From assembly GCA_016342755.1 (NCBI GenBank), contig JAEINS010000004.1:62001-126000 (forward strand): DNA of 64,000 nucleotides, read 5' to 3'. The position numbers were made by a program, and so were the translations under genes. Source of the DNA: Melioribacteraceae bacterium. Its GTDB lineage: Bacteria > Bacteroidota > Ignavibacteria > Ignavibacteriales > Melioribacteraceae. Below are positions 8,527 to 48,556 of this stretch, piece after piece (positions within the stretch are counted from its first letter, which is position 1; each line of letters starts with the position of its first letter). The notes under the pieces are model-generated. The model saw only the letters and a list, made by a program, of their open reading frames with translations. It searched no databases and was not told the DNA's origin.

Positions 8527-9987
8527 ATGAATGTTGCTTTTGTTGCAAGTGAAGTTGTTCCATTTGCTAAAACCGGCGGTTTAGCTGATGTTGCCGGTGC
8601 TTTACCAAAAGAACTGTCGAAGTTAAAATGCAATGTAAAAGTTTTTATGCCTCTTTATGGTTCTATAAAAAAGCAAAATTTAAAGCTTAATTATGTATGG
8701 TCTATTGGAAAAATAAAGTTGGATATTGGCGGTGAAGTTAGAAATGTTGAAGTCTGGCAAATTCAACTTAAAGATTCTGACGTTCAGGTATATTTTATAG
8801 ATTATCCAAAGTTTTTTAAAAGAAAAGATTTTTACACAAATTCTCCGGATGAACATTTACGCTGGATTCTTTTTAATAAGGCTGTTATAGAAACTATTCA
8901 AAGACTGCAATGGTCACCCGATATTATTCATCTAAATGACTGGCAGGGCGGTTTAATTCCCTTATATATAAAAGAAAACTATAATTGGGATAAATTTTTT
9001 CAAAAAACTAAAACAATTTTTTCAATCCATAATATTGGTTATCAGGGTTTATTTCCCGCAAATATATTTAATGAAACTGAAATAAACAGTAAACATTTTT
9101 ATCCGACCGGTCCTGTTGAGTATTATGAGAAAATTAGTTTGTTAAAAGCCGGACTTGTATTTTCAGATTTAATAAACACAGTTTCCGAAACATACGCAAA
9201 AGAAATTCTGACAGAAGAATACGGCGGCGGAATGCATGAAATTCTTAATGACAGGAAATCTGATTTATCGGGAATTGTAAACGGTGTTGATTACGAAATT
9301 TGGAATCCTAAAACTGATCCTAATATTTATAAGAATTATACAAGTGCAAAACTTTCTGATAAAGAGATAAATAAAGAAGAGCTGCTTAAAGAAGCAGGGT
9401 TGCCTTACAATAAAACAACTCCGGTAATTGGAATGATTTCAAGAATTGTATCGCAAAAAGGTTACGATATATTAGCGGAAGCCTTACCGGAACTTACAAA
9501 GCTCGATGTACAGTGGGTAATTCTTGGCAGTGGCGAAAAGAAATATGAAAGACTGATGAAAAAAGTAGCCCGGAAATTTCCCGATAATGTTTCAATTATA
9601 ATCGGTTATAACGATGTTTTATCACATAAAATTGAGGCTGGTGCTGATTATTTACTAATGCCGTCACTTTATGAACCGTGCGGACTGAATCAAATATTCT
9701 CACTAAAATATGGAACAATTCCTATTGTCCGTAATACCGGCGGTTTAGCCGATACTGTAATTGACTGGGACAAATCAGTTGAAGAAAAGAGAAATGATGG
9801 TACCGGTTTTGTCTTTGATGAATATTCCGGGCATGCTTTGTTTAAGGTAATTGAAAGAGCTGCTGTTCACTTTAATAATAAAAAAGTATGGCGCTCAATT
9901 CAGAAAAACGCGATGAAAAAAGATTATTCATGGAAAGCATCTGCTAAAAAATATATTGAGCTTTATGAAAAGGCGATTGAAAAGTAA
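8527..9987 (+). CDS. glgA: glycogen/starch synthase, GT5
   Basis: The 486-residue length and motifs fit bacterial GlgA, which adds glucose from ADP-glucose to the growing alpha-1,4-glucan. The N-terminal KTGGLADVAGALP (15-27) is the ADP-glucose site; HLNDWQGGLIPLY and IFSIHNIGYQGLFP are also family hallmarks, and the C-terminal half has LMPSLYEPCGLNQ with the catalytic/nucleotide Glu and the following NTGGLADTV loop. The enzyme is cytoplasmic. AGGAAG precedes the ATG. It is the last gene of the plus-strand run and is followed by a stem-loop shared with the convergent minus-strand operon. Confidence 0.95.
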   Translation: MNVAFVASEVVPFAKTGGLADVAGALPKELSKLKCNVKVFMPLYGSIKKQNLKLNYVWSIGKIKLDIGGEVRNVEVWQIQLKDSDVQVYFIDYPKFFKRKDFYTNSPDEHLRWILFNKAVIETIQRLQWSPDIIHLNDWQGGLIPLYIKENYNWDKFFQKTKTIFSIHNIGYQGLFPANIFNETEINSKHFYPTGPVEYYEKISLLKAGLVFSDLINTVSETYAKEILTEEYGGGMHEILNDRKSDLSGIVNGVDYEIWNPKTDPNIYKNYTSAKLSDKEINKEELLKEAGLPYNKTTPVIGMISRIVSQKGYDILAEALPELTKLDVQWVILGSGEKKYERLMKKVARKFPDNVSIIIGYNDVLSHKIEAGADYLLMPSLYEPCGLNQIFSLKYGTIPIVRNTGGLADTVIDWDKSVEEKRNDGTGFVFDEYSGHALFKVIERAAVHFNNKKVWRSIQKNAMKKDYSWKASAKKYIELYEKAIEK

Positions 9988-43646: not shown

Positions 43647-44933
43647 ATGTCGTTTGAAAAAATTAATCTTATAAGACCAATACAAAAAGCTTTACAAGAA
43701 GAAGGTTATAAATCTCCAACACCAATTCAGGAAAGATCAATTCCAATAATACTTAAAGGAAAAGATTTACTTGGATGCGCACAGACCGGCACAGGAAAAA
43801 CTGCCGCATTTGCAATCCCAATTCTACAGCTATTAAGCGAAGTAAAGAAAACAGCCTATAAAAAGAGAACAATCCGTTCTTTAATAGTTACTCCTACAAG
43901 AGAACTTGCAATTCAGATTGGAGACAGTTTTTCGGCTTATGGAAAACATACCGGACTTAAAAACGCGGTTGTCTTTGGCGGTGTTAAACAAAGAATACAG
44001 ACCGATAAATTAAACTCAGGTGTTGATATATTAGTAGCAACTCCCGGAAGACTTCTCGATCTGATGAATCAGGGATATATTAGTCTGCATGCAATAGAAC
44101 TATTTGTACTTGATGAAGCTGACAGAATGCTTGATATGGGTTTTATTAATGATGTTAATAAAATTATTAGAAAACTGCCGACAAAAAGACAATCATTGTT
44201 CTTTTCGGCAACAATGCCTGCAGAAATAGTAAAACTTGCAAAAACTATTTTGGATAAACCTGTTAAAGTTGAAGTGACTCCTGAATCATCAACTGTAGAA
44301 AAAATAAAACAGAGTGTTTATTACGTTGCGAAACCTGATAAAAAAAGACTTCTTGTTCATTTGTTAGATGATCAAAGTATTGAATCGGCACTGGTTTTTT
44401 CGCGCACAAAACATGGTGCAAATAAAATAGCTCAAATTTTAAGTAAGAAAAAAATTAAAGCAGAAGCTATTCATGGTGATAAATCGCAAAACTCTAGACA
44501 ACGTGCTTTACATAATTTTAAGTCTAAAGAAACCCGTGTTTTAGTGGCTACCGATATTGCAGCACGCGGAATTGATATTGATGAACTTTCGCATGTAATA
44601 AATTATGATCTTCCTAACATACCGGAAACTTATGTACACCGGATTGGAAGAACCGGCCGTGCCGGATTAGAAGGAACAGCTTTCTCATTTTGTGATACAG
44701 AAGAAAGAGAATTTTTAAAAGATATAAACAAGTTGATTAAAAAATCGATTCATGTTGTTGATAATCATCCTTTTACTACGCCGACTGAAATAACAGAAAA
44801 ACCTAGTTTACCTGCAGAAAAACAGAATCGTGCAAAAGTTAAAACCAGTAAAGAAAGTAAAACTACTGAAACTAAATCGAGACGCAGAAAAAGAAATCCT
44901 AAAAAGGCATTTGTTAATAAAGGAAGAAATTAA
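43647..44933 (+). CDS. DEAD-box RNA helicase, RhlE type
   Basis: All core helicase motifs are present: Q motif [11 protein letters not shown], Walker [13 protein letters not shown], Ia [18 protein letters not shown], motif II DEAD, motif III SAT, then [29 protein letters not shown] and [10 protein letters not shown] in domain 2. The C-terminal tail (about 380-428) is Lys/Arg-rich ([13 protein letters not shown]), a typical RNA-binding extension. It unwinds RNA duplexes in ribosome assembly or RNA decay. The 428-residue length and the basic tail favour RhlE over the larger CsdA. Confidence 0.95.
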
Positions 44934-44987
44934 TTGTAATTTCTCCTTTCCACTTAAAATGTTAACATAAAAGCTTCCTTAATAAAA

Positions 44988-45008
44988 TGCCATGGCAAGA
45001 TCATGGCA
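44988..45008 (+). terminator. stem-loop TGCCATG/CATGGCA after the helicase gene
   Basis: A perfect 7-bp stem with GCAAGAT loop, 54 nt after the helicase stop, followed by CTCTTATAAAA instead of a T run. It may terminate helicase transcription or be part of the repeat-rich accessory stretch that follows. Confidence 0.45.
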
Positions 45009-45103
45009 CTCTTATAAAACCCACTATGAGTATAGCCTGCACTATTTTTAAAAAAGTTATAAAAGAACACCTATTTAGTTATAATTAAATTGCTTATAAA
45101 AAT

Positions 45104-45192
45104 AATTGCTTTTTGTTTTGTTCAATTATTTGTAGTTTACTTTCAAAAAGGGTACAGATTTTTATATGTTAGTACCCTATTCATGCAGGTTA
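45104..45192 (+). repeat. cassette-like 5' module, copy A
   Basis: This non-coding block lies 59 nt before the start of the membrane-protein gene at 45252. It is about four-fifths identical to copy B (46362-46451). Shared parts are AATTGCTTTTT, ATTTGTAGTTTA, a hairpin of AGGGTAC and GTACCCT enclosing a T-rich loop, and TATTCATGCAGGTTA. Similarity continues past its end (GTTATAC, AAATAATATT). An imperfect inverted match to its last bases, GTATAGCCTGC at 45030-45040 against GCAGGTTATAC at 45185-45195, brackets a 166-bp segment. The 318-bp gap after the helicase gene holds only this and the stem-loop at 44988. Confidence 0.75.
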
Positions 45193-45251
45193 TACCGCTT
45201 AAAAGATAAATAATATTATAATTATATAAAGTTTAACAGGAATAAGCCAAA

Positions 45252-45647
45252 ATGTTTTACAAATATACTTACTATAGATTATACAAATGGTCTAGAGGTA
45301 ACAGTCTGATAAATGTTCCTTATCTTTATCCACATATAAGTGCAATTTATTTTCTTACTTTGTTAATCTTATCAAATGCTTATTTTCTTTTGGTTTTGCT
45401 TGACAAATTACAGATTTTCAAATTTGATGGAGATTTTATTCATAGTCCTTCTGCTAAAATATTATTAACAGTTTTTATTTCAATGCTTTTGTTTAACCAC
45501 CTTTATTTCTATTGGATAAATAAATGGCGAGAGGTTATAACTTATTTTAAGAACAATAATATTTCAACTAAAATAAAATTGTTCTCACATACTTATATCC
45601 TCTTTTCAGTTTTTAGTTTTCTGATTATTTACTTATTTGATTTATAA
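45252..45647 (+). CDS. small membrane protein of unknown function (cassette-like position)
   Basis: A 131-residue protein with three likely membrane spans: about 29-52 (ISAIYFLTLLILSNAYFLL), 73-91 (LLTVFISMLLFNHLYFY) and 110-129 (HTYILFSVFSFLIIYLF). It begins with an aromatic-rich, basic stretch (YKYTYYRLYKWSRG). No family is recognised. The ATG has AGGAATAAG before it. It stands between a 5' module and a 3' module that also frame a quite different gene at 46510, the reason for treating it as part of a cassette-like element. Confidence 0.6.
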   Translation: MFYKYTYYRLYKWSRGNSLINVPYLYPHISAIYFLTLLILSNAYFLLVLLDKLQIFKFDGDFIHSPSAKILLTVFISMLLFNHLYFYWINKWREVITYFKNNNISTKIKLFSHTYILFSVFSFLIIYLFDL

Positions 45648-45713
45648 TATTTTTTAAAACGTCAGTGAAGGAATTATAATATTTATAGTTGAATTTCGTC
45701 AATTATTAAAATC

Positions 45714-45761
45714 GGTATAACCTCCTAAGTAAGTAAAAAGTCCCGCCCAAAGAAATGGCGG
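45714..45761 (+). repeat. cassette-like 3' module, copy A
   Basis: GGTATAACCT (45714-45723) is the exact reverse complement of AGGTTATACC at 45187-45196, so the small membrane-protein gene is bounded by 10-bp inverted repeats. It is followed by CCTAAG and a hairpin, CCGCC (45743-45747) with GGCGG (45757-45761), whose loop includes AAAGAAAT. The same design follows the next framed gene at 47132-47168. Confidence 0.7.
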
Positions 45762-45807
45762 TAAACAAGAGAATTTAATTTTTAATAAAAGCATTCGAAG
45801 GGGCAAA

Positions 45808-46215
45808 ATGAAAAAATATCAGCAATATTTACCCTATTTAATTATTGTCATTTTTTTATCTCTCCCAGGACTAACTGAAACAACACATGTTAGTCTGGCT
45901 TGGATAGAAATAGTAATTTTAATTATTGCAATAATTTTATTATTTGAATTTATTGAGAAAAGTAGAATTAAGAGAATAAAGAAATGGGGCGATAATCGTC
46001 CAGGTAAAATAAAACAAATATTAAAATTCAGTTTATTACTGGGTTTACCAATATCGTCTATAATTATATTTATTCTTCACAACAAGGCAGATTTAATTTA
46101 TTCCATAATATTTATATCTGTCCCATTAATTATACTATTCGGTTGGATAGGTCTATTGGACTGGAAGAGTTGTGATAGAATAAATCTTGAAGGGAAGTAT
46201 AAAATATCTTTATAA
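45808..46215 (+). CDS. second small membrane protein of unknown function
   Basis: A 135-residue protein with spans at about 8-26 (YLPYLIIVIFLSLPGL), 28-48, 67-88 and 94-114, separated by a basic loop (KSRIKRIKKWGDNRPGKIK). No family is recognised. GAAGGGG precedes the ATG. It is placed between the 3' module of the first framed gene and the large hairpin at 46267, and has no 5' module of its own, so it may be a passenger of the same element. Same strand as all other genes in the stretch. Confidence 0.6.
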   Translation: MKKYQQYLPYLIIVIFLSLPGLTETTHVSLAWIEIVILIIAIILLFEFIEKSRIKRIKKWGDNRPGKIKQILKFSLLLGLPISSIIIFILHNKADLIYSIIFISVPLIILFGWIGLLDWKSCDRINLEGKYKISL

Positions 46216-46266
46216 GATTGAATCTGTCAATCAAGACAACCGATTTTGAGTGTTTTAAGTTTTCTG

Positions 46267-46316
46267 AATTTATCTGAAGCTGCGCTGTGTAAACTCCGCT
46301 TCGCTTCAGATAAATT
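46267..46316. repeat. 14-bp perfect inverted repeat in the accessory stretch
   Basis: AATTTATCTGAAGC (46267-46280) pairs perfectly with GCTTCAGATAAATT (46303-46316) across a 22-nt loop. Weaker complementarity continues outward (GTGTTTTAAG against CTTAACACA). There is no T run. It lies between two small genes and could be a terminator for the first, a recombination site, or a structured RNA end. Confidence 0.7.
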
Positions 46317-46361
46317 ATTCCCTTAACACAAAACTTTTTACACTACCTATTAAAGACAACT

Positions 46362-46451
46362 AATTGCTTTTTATTTAGTTTAATAATTTGTAGTTTAGCT
46401 CTCAAAAGGGTGCGGGGTTTTTATTTGTTAGTACCCTATTCATGCAGGTTA
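46362..46451 (+). repeat. cassette-like 5' module, copy B
   Basis: The second copy of the upstream module described at 45104-45192. The hairpin arm here reads AGGGTGC with GTACCCT, so one A-T pair of copy A became a G-T pair: pairing is kept while the sequence changed. It ends at CATGCAGGTTA, 58 nt before the ATG at 46510, almost the same spacing as in copy A. The 294-bp gap before that gene holds this and the inverted repeat at 46267. Confidence 0.75.
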
Positions 46452-46509
46452 ATAATATGTTATACAAATTAAATAATATTTGATTAATAAATATTTATGG
46501 GATGGGAGT

Positions 46510-47115
46510 ATGATTATAAATATCAATGAAGTATATCAATTCAAAATATCATTGAATAATTCCAAACCATTGATTTGGAGAAGGATAGTAGTTCCTTCTA
46601 CATATTCATTTTGGGATTTGCACGTTGCGATTCAAGATTCAATGGGGTGGTATGATTACCATCTGCATATGTTCGAAATAAAAAAACCCGGAACAAACAT
46701 AAAAGTTGAAATTGGAATTCCTGATGAGGAGTACGAGGCATTTGATAAAACAGTTTTAGCAGACCATAAAGAAAAAATATCAAAGTATTTTAATGAGACT
46801 AATAACATTGCCAGATATGAATATGATTTTGGTGATTCCTGGATTCATACTGTCAAATTAGAGAAAACACTCAAAGCTACAATCGCTGAAAAATATCCTA
46901 TATGTATAGCTGGTAAGATGGCATGCCCGCCAGAAGATTGTGGTGGTATCGGTGGTTATTATCATTTGTTATCTGTATTGAGCGATCCTAATAACGAAGA
47001 TTATACCGGAATGATAGAATGGCTGGGTGGAGAATTTAATCCGGAAATATTTGATTCTAAAGATGTATCGTTCGATGATCCAAAAGAAAGATATAAGCAG
47101 ATGAATAGAGATTAA
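46510..47115 (+). CDS. plasmid pRiA4b ORF-3-like family protein
   Basis: The ATG at 46510 is chosen because family members begin with a strand like YQFKISLNNSKPLIWRRIVV, here right at the N-terminus; a TTG at 46480 would be longer. The 201-residue product keeps FWDLHVAIQDSMGWYDYHLH, YEYDFGDSWIHTVKLEK and CPPEDCGGIGGYYHLL, the three conserved blocks. The biochemical role of the family is unknown; it is common on plasmids and in mobile or accessory DNA. GGGAG directly precedes the ATG with only one base spacing, which is unusual. Framed by 5' and 3' modules. Confidence 0.85.
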   Translation: MIININEVYQFKISLNNSKPLIWRRIVVPSTYSFWDLHVAIQDSMGWYDYHLHMFEIKKPGTNIKVEIGIPDEEYEAFDKTVLADHKEKISKYFNETNNIARYEYDFGDSWIHTVKLEKTLKATIAEKYPICIAGKMACPPEDCGGIGGYYHLLSVLSDPNNEDYTGMIEWLGGEFNPEIFDSKDVSFDDPKERYKQMNRD

Positions 47116-47131
47116 GTGTAACAAAAAGTTT

Positions 47132-47168
47132 GTACAACCTCTTAAATCCGCCAAAAGAAATTGGCGGA
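47132..47168 (+). repeat. cassette-like 3' module, copy B
   Basis: GTACAACCTCTTAAA followed by a 7-bp hairpin, TCCGCCA (47147-47153) with TGGCGGA (47162-47168), loop AAAGAAAT, repeats the design seen after the small membrane-protein gene. It may also act as a terminator between two convergent genes. The remaining about 75 bp to the FeS gene show no feature. Confidence 0.7.
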
Positions 47169-47242
47169 TAAACCAGGGGCTATTCAACTGCTGCCGGGAA
47201 TCACTTTCCGACTGTACACTAAGAAATTAAAGAGCGTAACTA

Positions 47243-48556
47243 CTAATTTTCAATCTCACTCTGAGGTGTTATCGGTTCCAGATAAATGTAAAATTCAAAT
47301 CTTTCAATCAGTTCACTTGCCAGAATAGAAATTACAGAATAGTAGAAATACTCTCTGTAACCGGTTAACCCAATAATTATAGGCATAACAAAACCAAAAA
47401 CTATTTTAGAATAGAAAAACAGAATTTTAGTTTTACTTGTAGTTGTATCACTTAACCGGGAATTATTTAGCCATAAAAGAATCTTTAGAATAACCAGAAT
47501 AAAAAATGAAATCTCAATGGAAATCAGTATGCCGATAAAAAACACCGCGGAAATAAATAGCTGATTATTTTTGTAAATGGATTTTTCTTTCTTCGGAATT
47601 ACACGATAGACACTATCGATTGCGAACAGCGCGGCAAATCCGATAAACGAGATGAATAAGCCGGCAGCACTTTTTTGGCCTATTAGTAAATAGATAAATG
47701 CCGATCCTAAAAATAATGAAGCAAATAATATTTCTCTACTAAGCCATGAGTTTTTCAAATTCAAAATTGCGCGGAAAGCCCTGTCTTTTTTGCCTAAATG
47801 TATTACACTAATTCCCATTGCCATTACACCGCTAATTAAAAATGGCATTGGCAAAAGATCTAAACTTACAAACTCTGCCGCTGTAAACATGCTGGTAAGA
47901 AACATAAAGATAAATGAGAATACAGCAAGGACCCATTCTTTTTTGACATCGATTTTCGGCTCGCTCTCTTTTTCACTCAGCAGACTCAATATAGATTCAT
48001 CATAAGGCTGTGAAAATTCGGGAAGAATATTTTTTTTACGAATTGACTTAATTTTAATCTTCGGCTTAATCCCGGTTTCGGGAAAGCCTGTAATATTATT
48101 TTCCACAACAGATTCATATTGTTCTGTAAACAAAGCTCCGGTCGGGCATACTGAAACACAGGCAGTTGTCATACCTTCTTCTAATCGATGATTACAAAAC
48201 GTACATTTTTCCATAACACCTTTGGTAAAGTTAAATGCCGGAGCATCGTACGGACAAACCCATGAACAATAGCCGCATCCAATACATTTGTTTTCATCAA
48301 TTATAACCGCGCCGGTTTTGTTGTCTCTAAAAATTGCAAGTGCCGGACAATATTTCATGCATGGCGCATCTTCGCAATGATTACACGCAATTGATAAATG
48401 ATAATACGGCTGATCAGGTTTTTGGTCTTTGTTATAAGTAACAACACGCCGCCAGTTTGTATTTACATCAAGCTGATTTTCTATTTTACACGCAATCTCG
48501 CAGGCTCTGCATCCGGTGCATTTATTGGCATCAAATATAAATTGAGTTTTTCCCAT
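47243..48556 (-). CDS. 4Fe-4S ferredoxin subunit fused to a membrane anchor
   Basis: Residues 1-160 hold a DmsB/NrfC-type electron-transfer subunit with sixteen Cys in four clusters: CTGCRACEIACKIEN, CNHCEDAPCMKYCP, CIGCGYCSWVCP and CTFCNHRLEEG with CVSVCP. Residues about 205-430 add about eight membrane spans, the place of the separate DmsC/NrfD anchor in other systems. So electron transfer and quinol oxidation are joined in one chain. It partners the molybdopterin enzyme gene upstream, whose stop overlaps its start (TAATG). The acceptor is unknown. Confidence 0.88.
   Translation of the reverse strand: MGKTQFIFDANKCTGCRACEIACKIENQLDVNTNWRRVVTYNKDQKPDQPYYHLSIACNHCEDAPCMKYCPALAIFRDNKTGAVIIDENKCIGCGYCSWVCPYDAPAFNFTKGVMEKCTFCNHRLEEGMTTACVSVCPTGALFTEQYESVVENNITGFPETGIKPKIKIKSIRKKNILPEFSQPYDESILSLLSEKESEPKIDVKKEWVLAVFSFIFMFLTSMFTAAEFVSLDLLPMPFLISGVMAMGISVIHLGKKDRAFRAILNLKNSWLSREILFASLFLGSAFIYLLIGQKSAAGLFISFIGFAALFAIDSVYRVIPKKEKSIYKNNQLFISAVFFIGILISIEISFFILVILKILLWLNNSRLSDTTTSKTKILFFYSKIVFGFVMPIIIGLTGYREYFYYSVISILASELIERFEFYIYLEPITPQSEIEN

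Follow-up and report, generated by a model that had tools for sequence, protein, structure and literature searches.

Two small genes of unrelated sequence lie close together in the window (the whole stretch of 64,000 nucleotides that was analyzed), and similar non-coding modules are found upstream and downstream of each. What kind of unit is repeated here? The earlier note described a 5' and a 3' module framing each gene and proposed either recombination sites, integron-like or of another cassette system, or a shared promoter/leader plus a terminator. The repetition of the modules stands, but the frame has to be redrawn, as the modules are better assigned to the halves of attC sites. The most natural explanation, to which we give a probability of about 0.84, is that a few integron gene cassettes with eroded sites are clustered here, away from the integrase. 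We call this cluster CALIN-type rather than a complete integron because the integrase IntI is encoded elsewhere, on contig C53. In our reading, the 3' module belongs with the gene before it and forms the left half of that gene's attC site, for cassette 1 (R''-L'' and hairpin) as well as for cassette 2; the 5' module forms the right half of the attC site that comes before.

In such a cluster, each cassette would combine a small gene with an attC recombination site, whose left half (the 3' module) would carry the R'' box, the L'' box, and an internal hairpin; the right half (the 5' module) would carry a hairpin, the L' box, and a spacer, up to the R' box with which the following cassette begins. 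The integron integrase would excise a cassette as a circle and then insert it, cutting at G^TT in R' on a folded single strand. The IntI encoded on C53, or a past integrase, would be the obvious candidate for this enzyme.

Repeated modules and genes of the locus

The two 5' modules are direct repeats that align in two blocks, one of 64 nt with 78% identity (45100-45163 and 46358-46421) and one of 53 nt with 83% identity (45140-45192 and 46399-46451). In a BLAST search against the genome to which the window belongs, the whole module is recovered at 86% identity (E 4e-23). As described previously, the modules precede both genes at nearly equal distances, 59 and 58 nt from the start codons ATG 45252 and ATG 46510, and a hairpin module follows both genes, with the hairpins at 45743-45761 and 47148-47167. 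The two coding regions are indeed unrelated, since the first has no Pfam match and the second belongs to PRiA4_ORF3 (3e-62). Two further genomes of the class sample encode distant homologues (32-49% identity) of the 131-aa protein of the first gene, and inspection by eye revealed no clear attC site beside them. To its left the locus adjoins a DEAD-box helicase gene, and to its right a ferredoxin/DmsC-type gene on the opposite strand. The features are listed in Table 1.

Table 1. Features of the probable cassette region, in coordinates of the window
Feature	Coordinates	Strand	Description	Basis
5' module 1	45100..45188	+	Putative attC right half, left half missing; inner part and L'-like GCAGG	Probable assignment
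R' edge of cassette 1	45189..45196	+	GTTATACC	Reverse complement of GGTATAAC at 45714-45721
Cassette 1 gene	45252..45647	+	131-aa membrane protein	No Pfam match
3' module 1	45714..45775	+	R'' GGTATAAC (45714-45721), L''-like stretch, hairpin CCGCC/GGCGG (45743-45761), TAAACAAGAG	Covariance model
ORF	45808..46215	+	135-aa membrane protein, between left and right attC halves	No significant Pfam match
Long imperfect hairpin	46249..46344	.	3' of the 135-aa ORF	Possible variable part of an attC
5' module 2	46358..46458	+	Putative attC right half: hairpin AGGGTGC/GTACCCT, L'-like GCAGGTTAA, 6-nt spacer TAATAT	Direct repeat
R' edge of cassette 2	46459..46468	+	GTTATACAAA	9/10 complementary to R'' at 47129-47138
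Cassette 2 gene	46510..47115	+	PRiA4_ORF3 (PF07929) protein, 201 aa	Pfam, 3e-62
3' module 2	47129..47182	+	R'' TTTGTACAAC (47129-47138), L''-like CTCTTAAATCCGCC, hairpin 47148-47167	Covariance model

The complete 5' module is found in only two copies in its own genome, 1.26 kb apart, and none was found in 390 other genomes of the class; on these grounds we rejected a dispersed repeat. No exact 25-nt match to it occurs in genome_contigs. Compared as whole sequences, the modules show no significant DNA similarity to attC sites from the related genomes G113 and G195 or from the own genome, and local alignment with attI regions and attC right halves gave no convincing match (best p 0.04-0.05 among 28 comparisons). 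In the absence of overall similarity, the identity of the module as an attC half therefore rests on its position and on the L'-R' motif. From these we infer that the 5' module is an attC right half with a hairpin, an L' box, and a spacer. In 5' module 1 the hairpin is formed by AGGGTAC (45149-45155) and GTACCCT (45172-45178), and the module matches the right halves of other sites in the same genome in position and order.

The right ends of sites in the own genome consist of GGTTAA or GCTTAA, a stretch of 6-11 nt, and GTTA or GTAA. Thus, 5' module 2 ends in GCAGGTTAA-TAATAT-GTTATAC, and the identical 6-nt spacing is found at C37:131 and C34:183. A generalized L'-spacer-R' motif (GTTAA or CTTAA, 5-12 nt, GTWA) is present at five of eight left edges, 52-87 nt ahead of the end of the gene region, versus 1-5% of shuffles, the pattern having been derived partly from the sequences on which it was tested. 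The L' box of 5' module 1 is fused with the R' box (GCAGGTTATACC), as would result from loss of the sequence between two GTTA copies.

The window contains no complete attC site. The first right half lacks its left half, the last left half (3' module 2) is one for which no matching right half was found, and the two halves of the site after gene 1 are separated by the 135-aa ORF. We therefore describe these units as eroded rather than as functional sites; several half-sites were probably lost by decay. The 135-aa ORF may be the gene of a third cassette with a deleted junction, or an insertion, and the long hairpin that follows it might be the variable portion of an attC site belonging to this ORF. 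Rfam gave only sub-threshold matches within the window, none of them attC-like. One of these, HrrF, coincides with the long hairpin and was taken as a chance match because its score, 29 bits, is far under the family cut-off of 77 bits. The helicase gene has close relatives in 19 other genomes, and the ferredoxin-type gene of the right flank is absent from the 1.5 kb beside them, so that no empty site can be demonstrated.

Complementarity of cassette edges

Within a cassette, the R'' box (..AAC) and the R' box (GTT..) are complementary over about 7-11 nt (PMC2727003), because both are ends of a single attC site when the cassette is a circle. The inverted outer ends previously described for the first element are real and form an inverted pair of 14 nt with 93% identity. 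The outer ends of the second element are also paired, GTTATACAAA (46459) with TTTGTACAAC (47129). This had been overlooked in the earlier note because these ends begin 8 nt past the shared module. Both window cassettes show R'/R'' pairing at 9 of 10 positions, and the pairing is gene-specific, with different sequences in the two units (GTTATACCGC versus GTTATACAAA).

The cassettes of G113 served as a positive control: all eight testable cassettes pair at 10/10 positions, and mismatched pairs average 6.9/10. For five cassettes of the own genome, the mean is 8.4/10 versus 5.75/10 for mismatched pairs (permutation p 0.008), with R' in this set anchored by eye on the GTTA after an L'-like motif and with several candidates available at C37:131. 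Taken together with the cassettes of G195, the pairing has p 5e-5; the four cassettes of G195 alone do not reach significance (p 0.08). This anchored test replaced an earlier permutation test with a free search in the left regions, which gave a weak result (5 of 120 permutations reached the score).

Distribution of the hairpin module

A covariance model of the hairpin module, built on six copies, matches seven places in the own genome. Six are the training copies (E 1e-14 to 1.5e-10), 3' module 1 of the window among them (E 1.5e-10), and one, on C35, is new (E 9e-5). The C35 site used as a query revealed two further sites on C7 (79851 and 80863) and shorter matches to the right half at C37:43488 and C30:172279. 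The genes located 5' of the module are diverse. They include a Phd/ParE pair at both C37:131 kb and C34:183 kb, HigB with an IrrE-domain (HigA-like) gene at C30:50 kb, an SDR-like gene at C7:79 kb, and an Mrr-type restriction endonuclease on C35 (the antitoxin on C34 and the SDR-like gene were named by eye). In the cases read in the own genome and in G195, the module lies downstream of different genes in the same sense. Restriction of the modules to the two window genes thus holds for the complete 5' module and fails for the 3' module, which has further copies and variants.

Three sites on C7, spaced at about 0.8-1 kb, have as neighbors an SDR-like gene, a HigBA pair, and a CAP12/PCTIR TIR gene. 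The own genome thus has a short cassette array at this place. The TIR-domain gene (G000:C7, L070, 5161-6447) adjoins HigBA and is possible defence cargo of cassettes.

The C7 sites contain the hairpin and have right ends of the form CGGGTTAACATAATA(C/G)GTCGTTA. In attC sites the L'' and L' boxes pair and leave an extrahelical base. Judged by eye, TTAAaTCCGC as L'' and GCGGgTTAA as L' may plausibly pair in this way in a C7 site; the window L' GCAGGTTAA would pair with a mismatch. Intact sites of the own genome are about 100 nt long on C35 and longer on C7. Sites of attC greater in length than the classical ones also occur. For comparison, a size of 57-142 nt and a greatly varying sequence are described for attC (PMC2727003).

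An array is also found in G195, where four covariance-model matches on C63, 0.95-1.7 kb apart, mark a series of small genes. The weaker of these matches are unconvincing alone, and the repeats were confirmed by BLAST: the genes are separated by repeats of about 200 bp (E down to 5e-67) that start with ..TAACMTCTTTAAT..CCCCGC and end with ..CACGCCGTTATATGG. The cargo, assigned by eye, includes a toxin-antitoxin pair and a HEPN/nucleotidyltransferase pair. Folding of these sites is mixed, as one folds well with paired R ends (z -3.5) and another poorly (z -0.3).

Two unlinked sites, L056 and L057, have AACGGTCGCAGARGMTGTCTCAAAA in common just 3' of the hairpin module, with CCTCT/AGAGG in one and CATCT/AGATG in the other, as would suit either a paired L box or a target of insertion that both sites share. 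The tail of the hairpin module, searched as a pattern in genome_contigs, gave eight matches; they were dismissed as chance because none has the full module.

These observations bear on the second option of the earlier note, in which two co-regulated genes share a promoter or leader upstream and a terminator or mRNA-end hairpin downstream, with no recombination. The near-equal distance of the 5' modules from the start codons and the position of the 3' hairpins soon after the stop codons would fit it, but we consider it improbable. No intrinsic terminator (G+C stem with a T-run) exists in 44900-47300, this scheme does not predict inverted edges, yet both units and other cassettes have them, and the hairpin is seen again at the edges of cassettes with unrelated genes, toxin-antitoxin and defence genes among them. 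Still less credible is a mobile element other than an integron, such as a MITE-like unit with hairpin ends and passenger genes that moves by IS200/IS605-like single-strand transposition. Such a unit would have hairpins near both ends and could be scattered singly in the genome, as is seen here, but the units lack fixed ends and those elsewhere have no 5' module. On C7 and in the G195 array, moreover, the right and left parts are joined in one intergenic site, an arrangement typical of attC and not of a transposon. A local segmental duplication that set identical flanks round another gene, with no cassette system, agrees with the two neighboring copies of the complete 5' module, but is the most remote of the alternatives, as it leaves unexplained both the dispersed 3' modules and a gene-specific R'/R'' pairing that differs between units.

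Integrase, arrays in relatives, and comparison with known integrons

An integron integrase is encoded in the own genome at C53:11716-12672, on a contig other than that of the window (TIGR02249, 454 bits versus a curated cut-off of 265). A cassette-like ORF pair and an attC-like site lie upstream of it. The same family exceeds the cut-off in 24 of 57 sampled genomes of the bacterial family, the own genome included. Several intI contigs of these genomes end about 250 bp past the 3' end of intI, which would fit a location of repeat-rich arrays on the 3' side of intI throughout the family.

The single-contig genome G113 contains a reverse-type integron, in which a full integron integrase is followed directly on its 3' side by about 12 repeats of about 220 bp in the same orientation, with the attC anatomy CCTAAC-CA-GCAAATcAACCCG ... 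CGGGTTATTTGC-AACGCC-GTTAGG. Among intact arrays beside intI, only this attC type is observed, and it lacks the CCGCC/GGCGG hairpin of the own-genome sites. Integron-like recombination sites, the first option of the earlier note, gain support from direct observations: the modules are repeated, the edges are complementary, the hairpin module occurs beside other genes that are cassette-type cargo, relatives have similar arrays, and another contig of the genome encodes IntI. The particular sites of the window are probably present or past substrates of IntI.

Integrons have been reported in Chlorobi and Ignavibacteriae (PMC9024848), and CALINs away from intI are known (PMC12444791). The window resembles integron cassettes with attC in its small genes of one orientation, a site after each gene, R'/R'' complementarity, and location away from intI, and differs in having only incomplete or interrupted sites. 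Chromosomal cassettes usually include toxin-antitoxin cargo, a further feature shared by the own genome. Unlike the usual attC, the sites of this genome carry the internal CCGCC/GGCGG hairpin close to L''. The TIGR02249 integrase in the own genome and the intI with about 12 cassettes in G113 are similar to sedentary chromosomal integrons. In contrast to G113, where the array follows intI in the same orientation, the C53 IntI has one or two recognizable cassette genes on its other side, in divergent orientation. Insertion of cassettes at non-classical attG sites, in the terms in which Loot et al. (2024) is cited in PMC12444791, would account for the scattered solitary cassettes of the own genome. 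The hairpin close to L'' and the number of solitary cassettes in one genome are mildly unusual.

The double frame of modules is explained here as worn attC halves. Outside the integron itself, at least five contigs hold much of the recognizable cassette cargo of this genome, namely toxin-antitoxin pairs, a restriction nuclease, and a TIR effector. Stranded cassettes of this kind may escape attC finders once half of the site is gone, and the edge-pairing test provides a simple way of recognizing them. A bolder and rather doubtful scenario is that this lineage has cassettes with a variant attC, its internal hairpin directly adjoining L'', that are regularly inserted one at a time around the chromosome, after which the site loses its right half and toxin-antitoxin and defence genes become locked in place. 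If true, it would describe a one-way route from an integron array to the fixed genome.

In G029, a shorter array lies behind an internally deleted integrase ORF. The intI remnant that heads this cassette array (G029:C21, L161:1283-1549) is an 88-aa ORF in which an N-terminal part is fused to a C-terminal part. In G153, two similar repeats of intI ends (L154:4580-4858 and 9143-9422) are found near a full intI.
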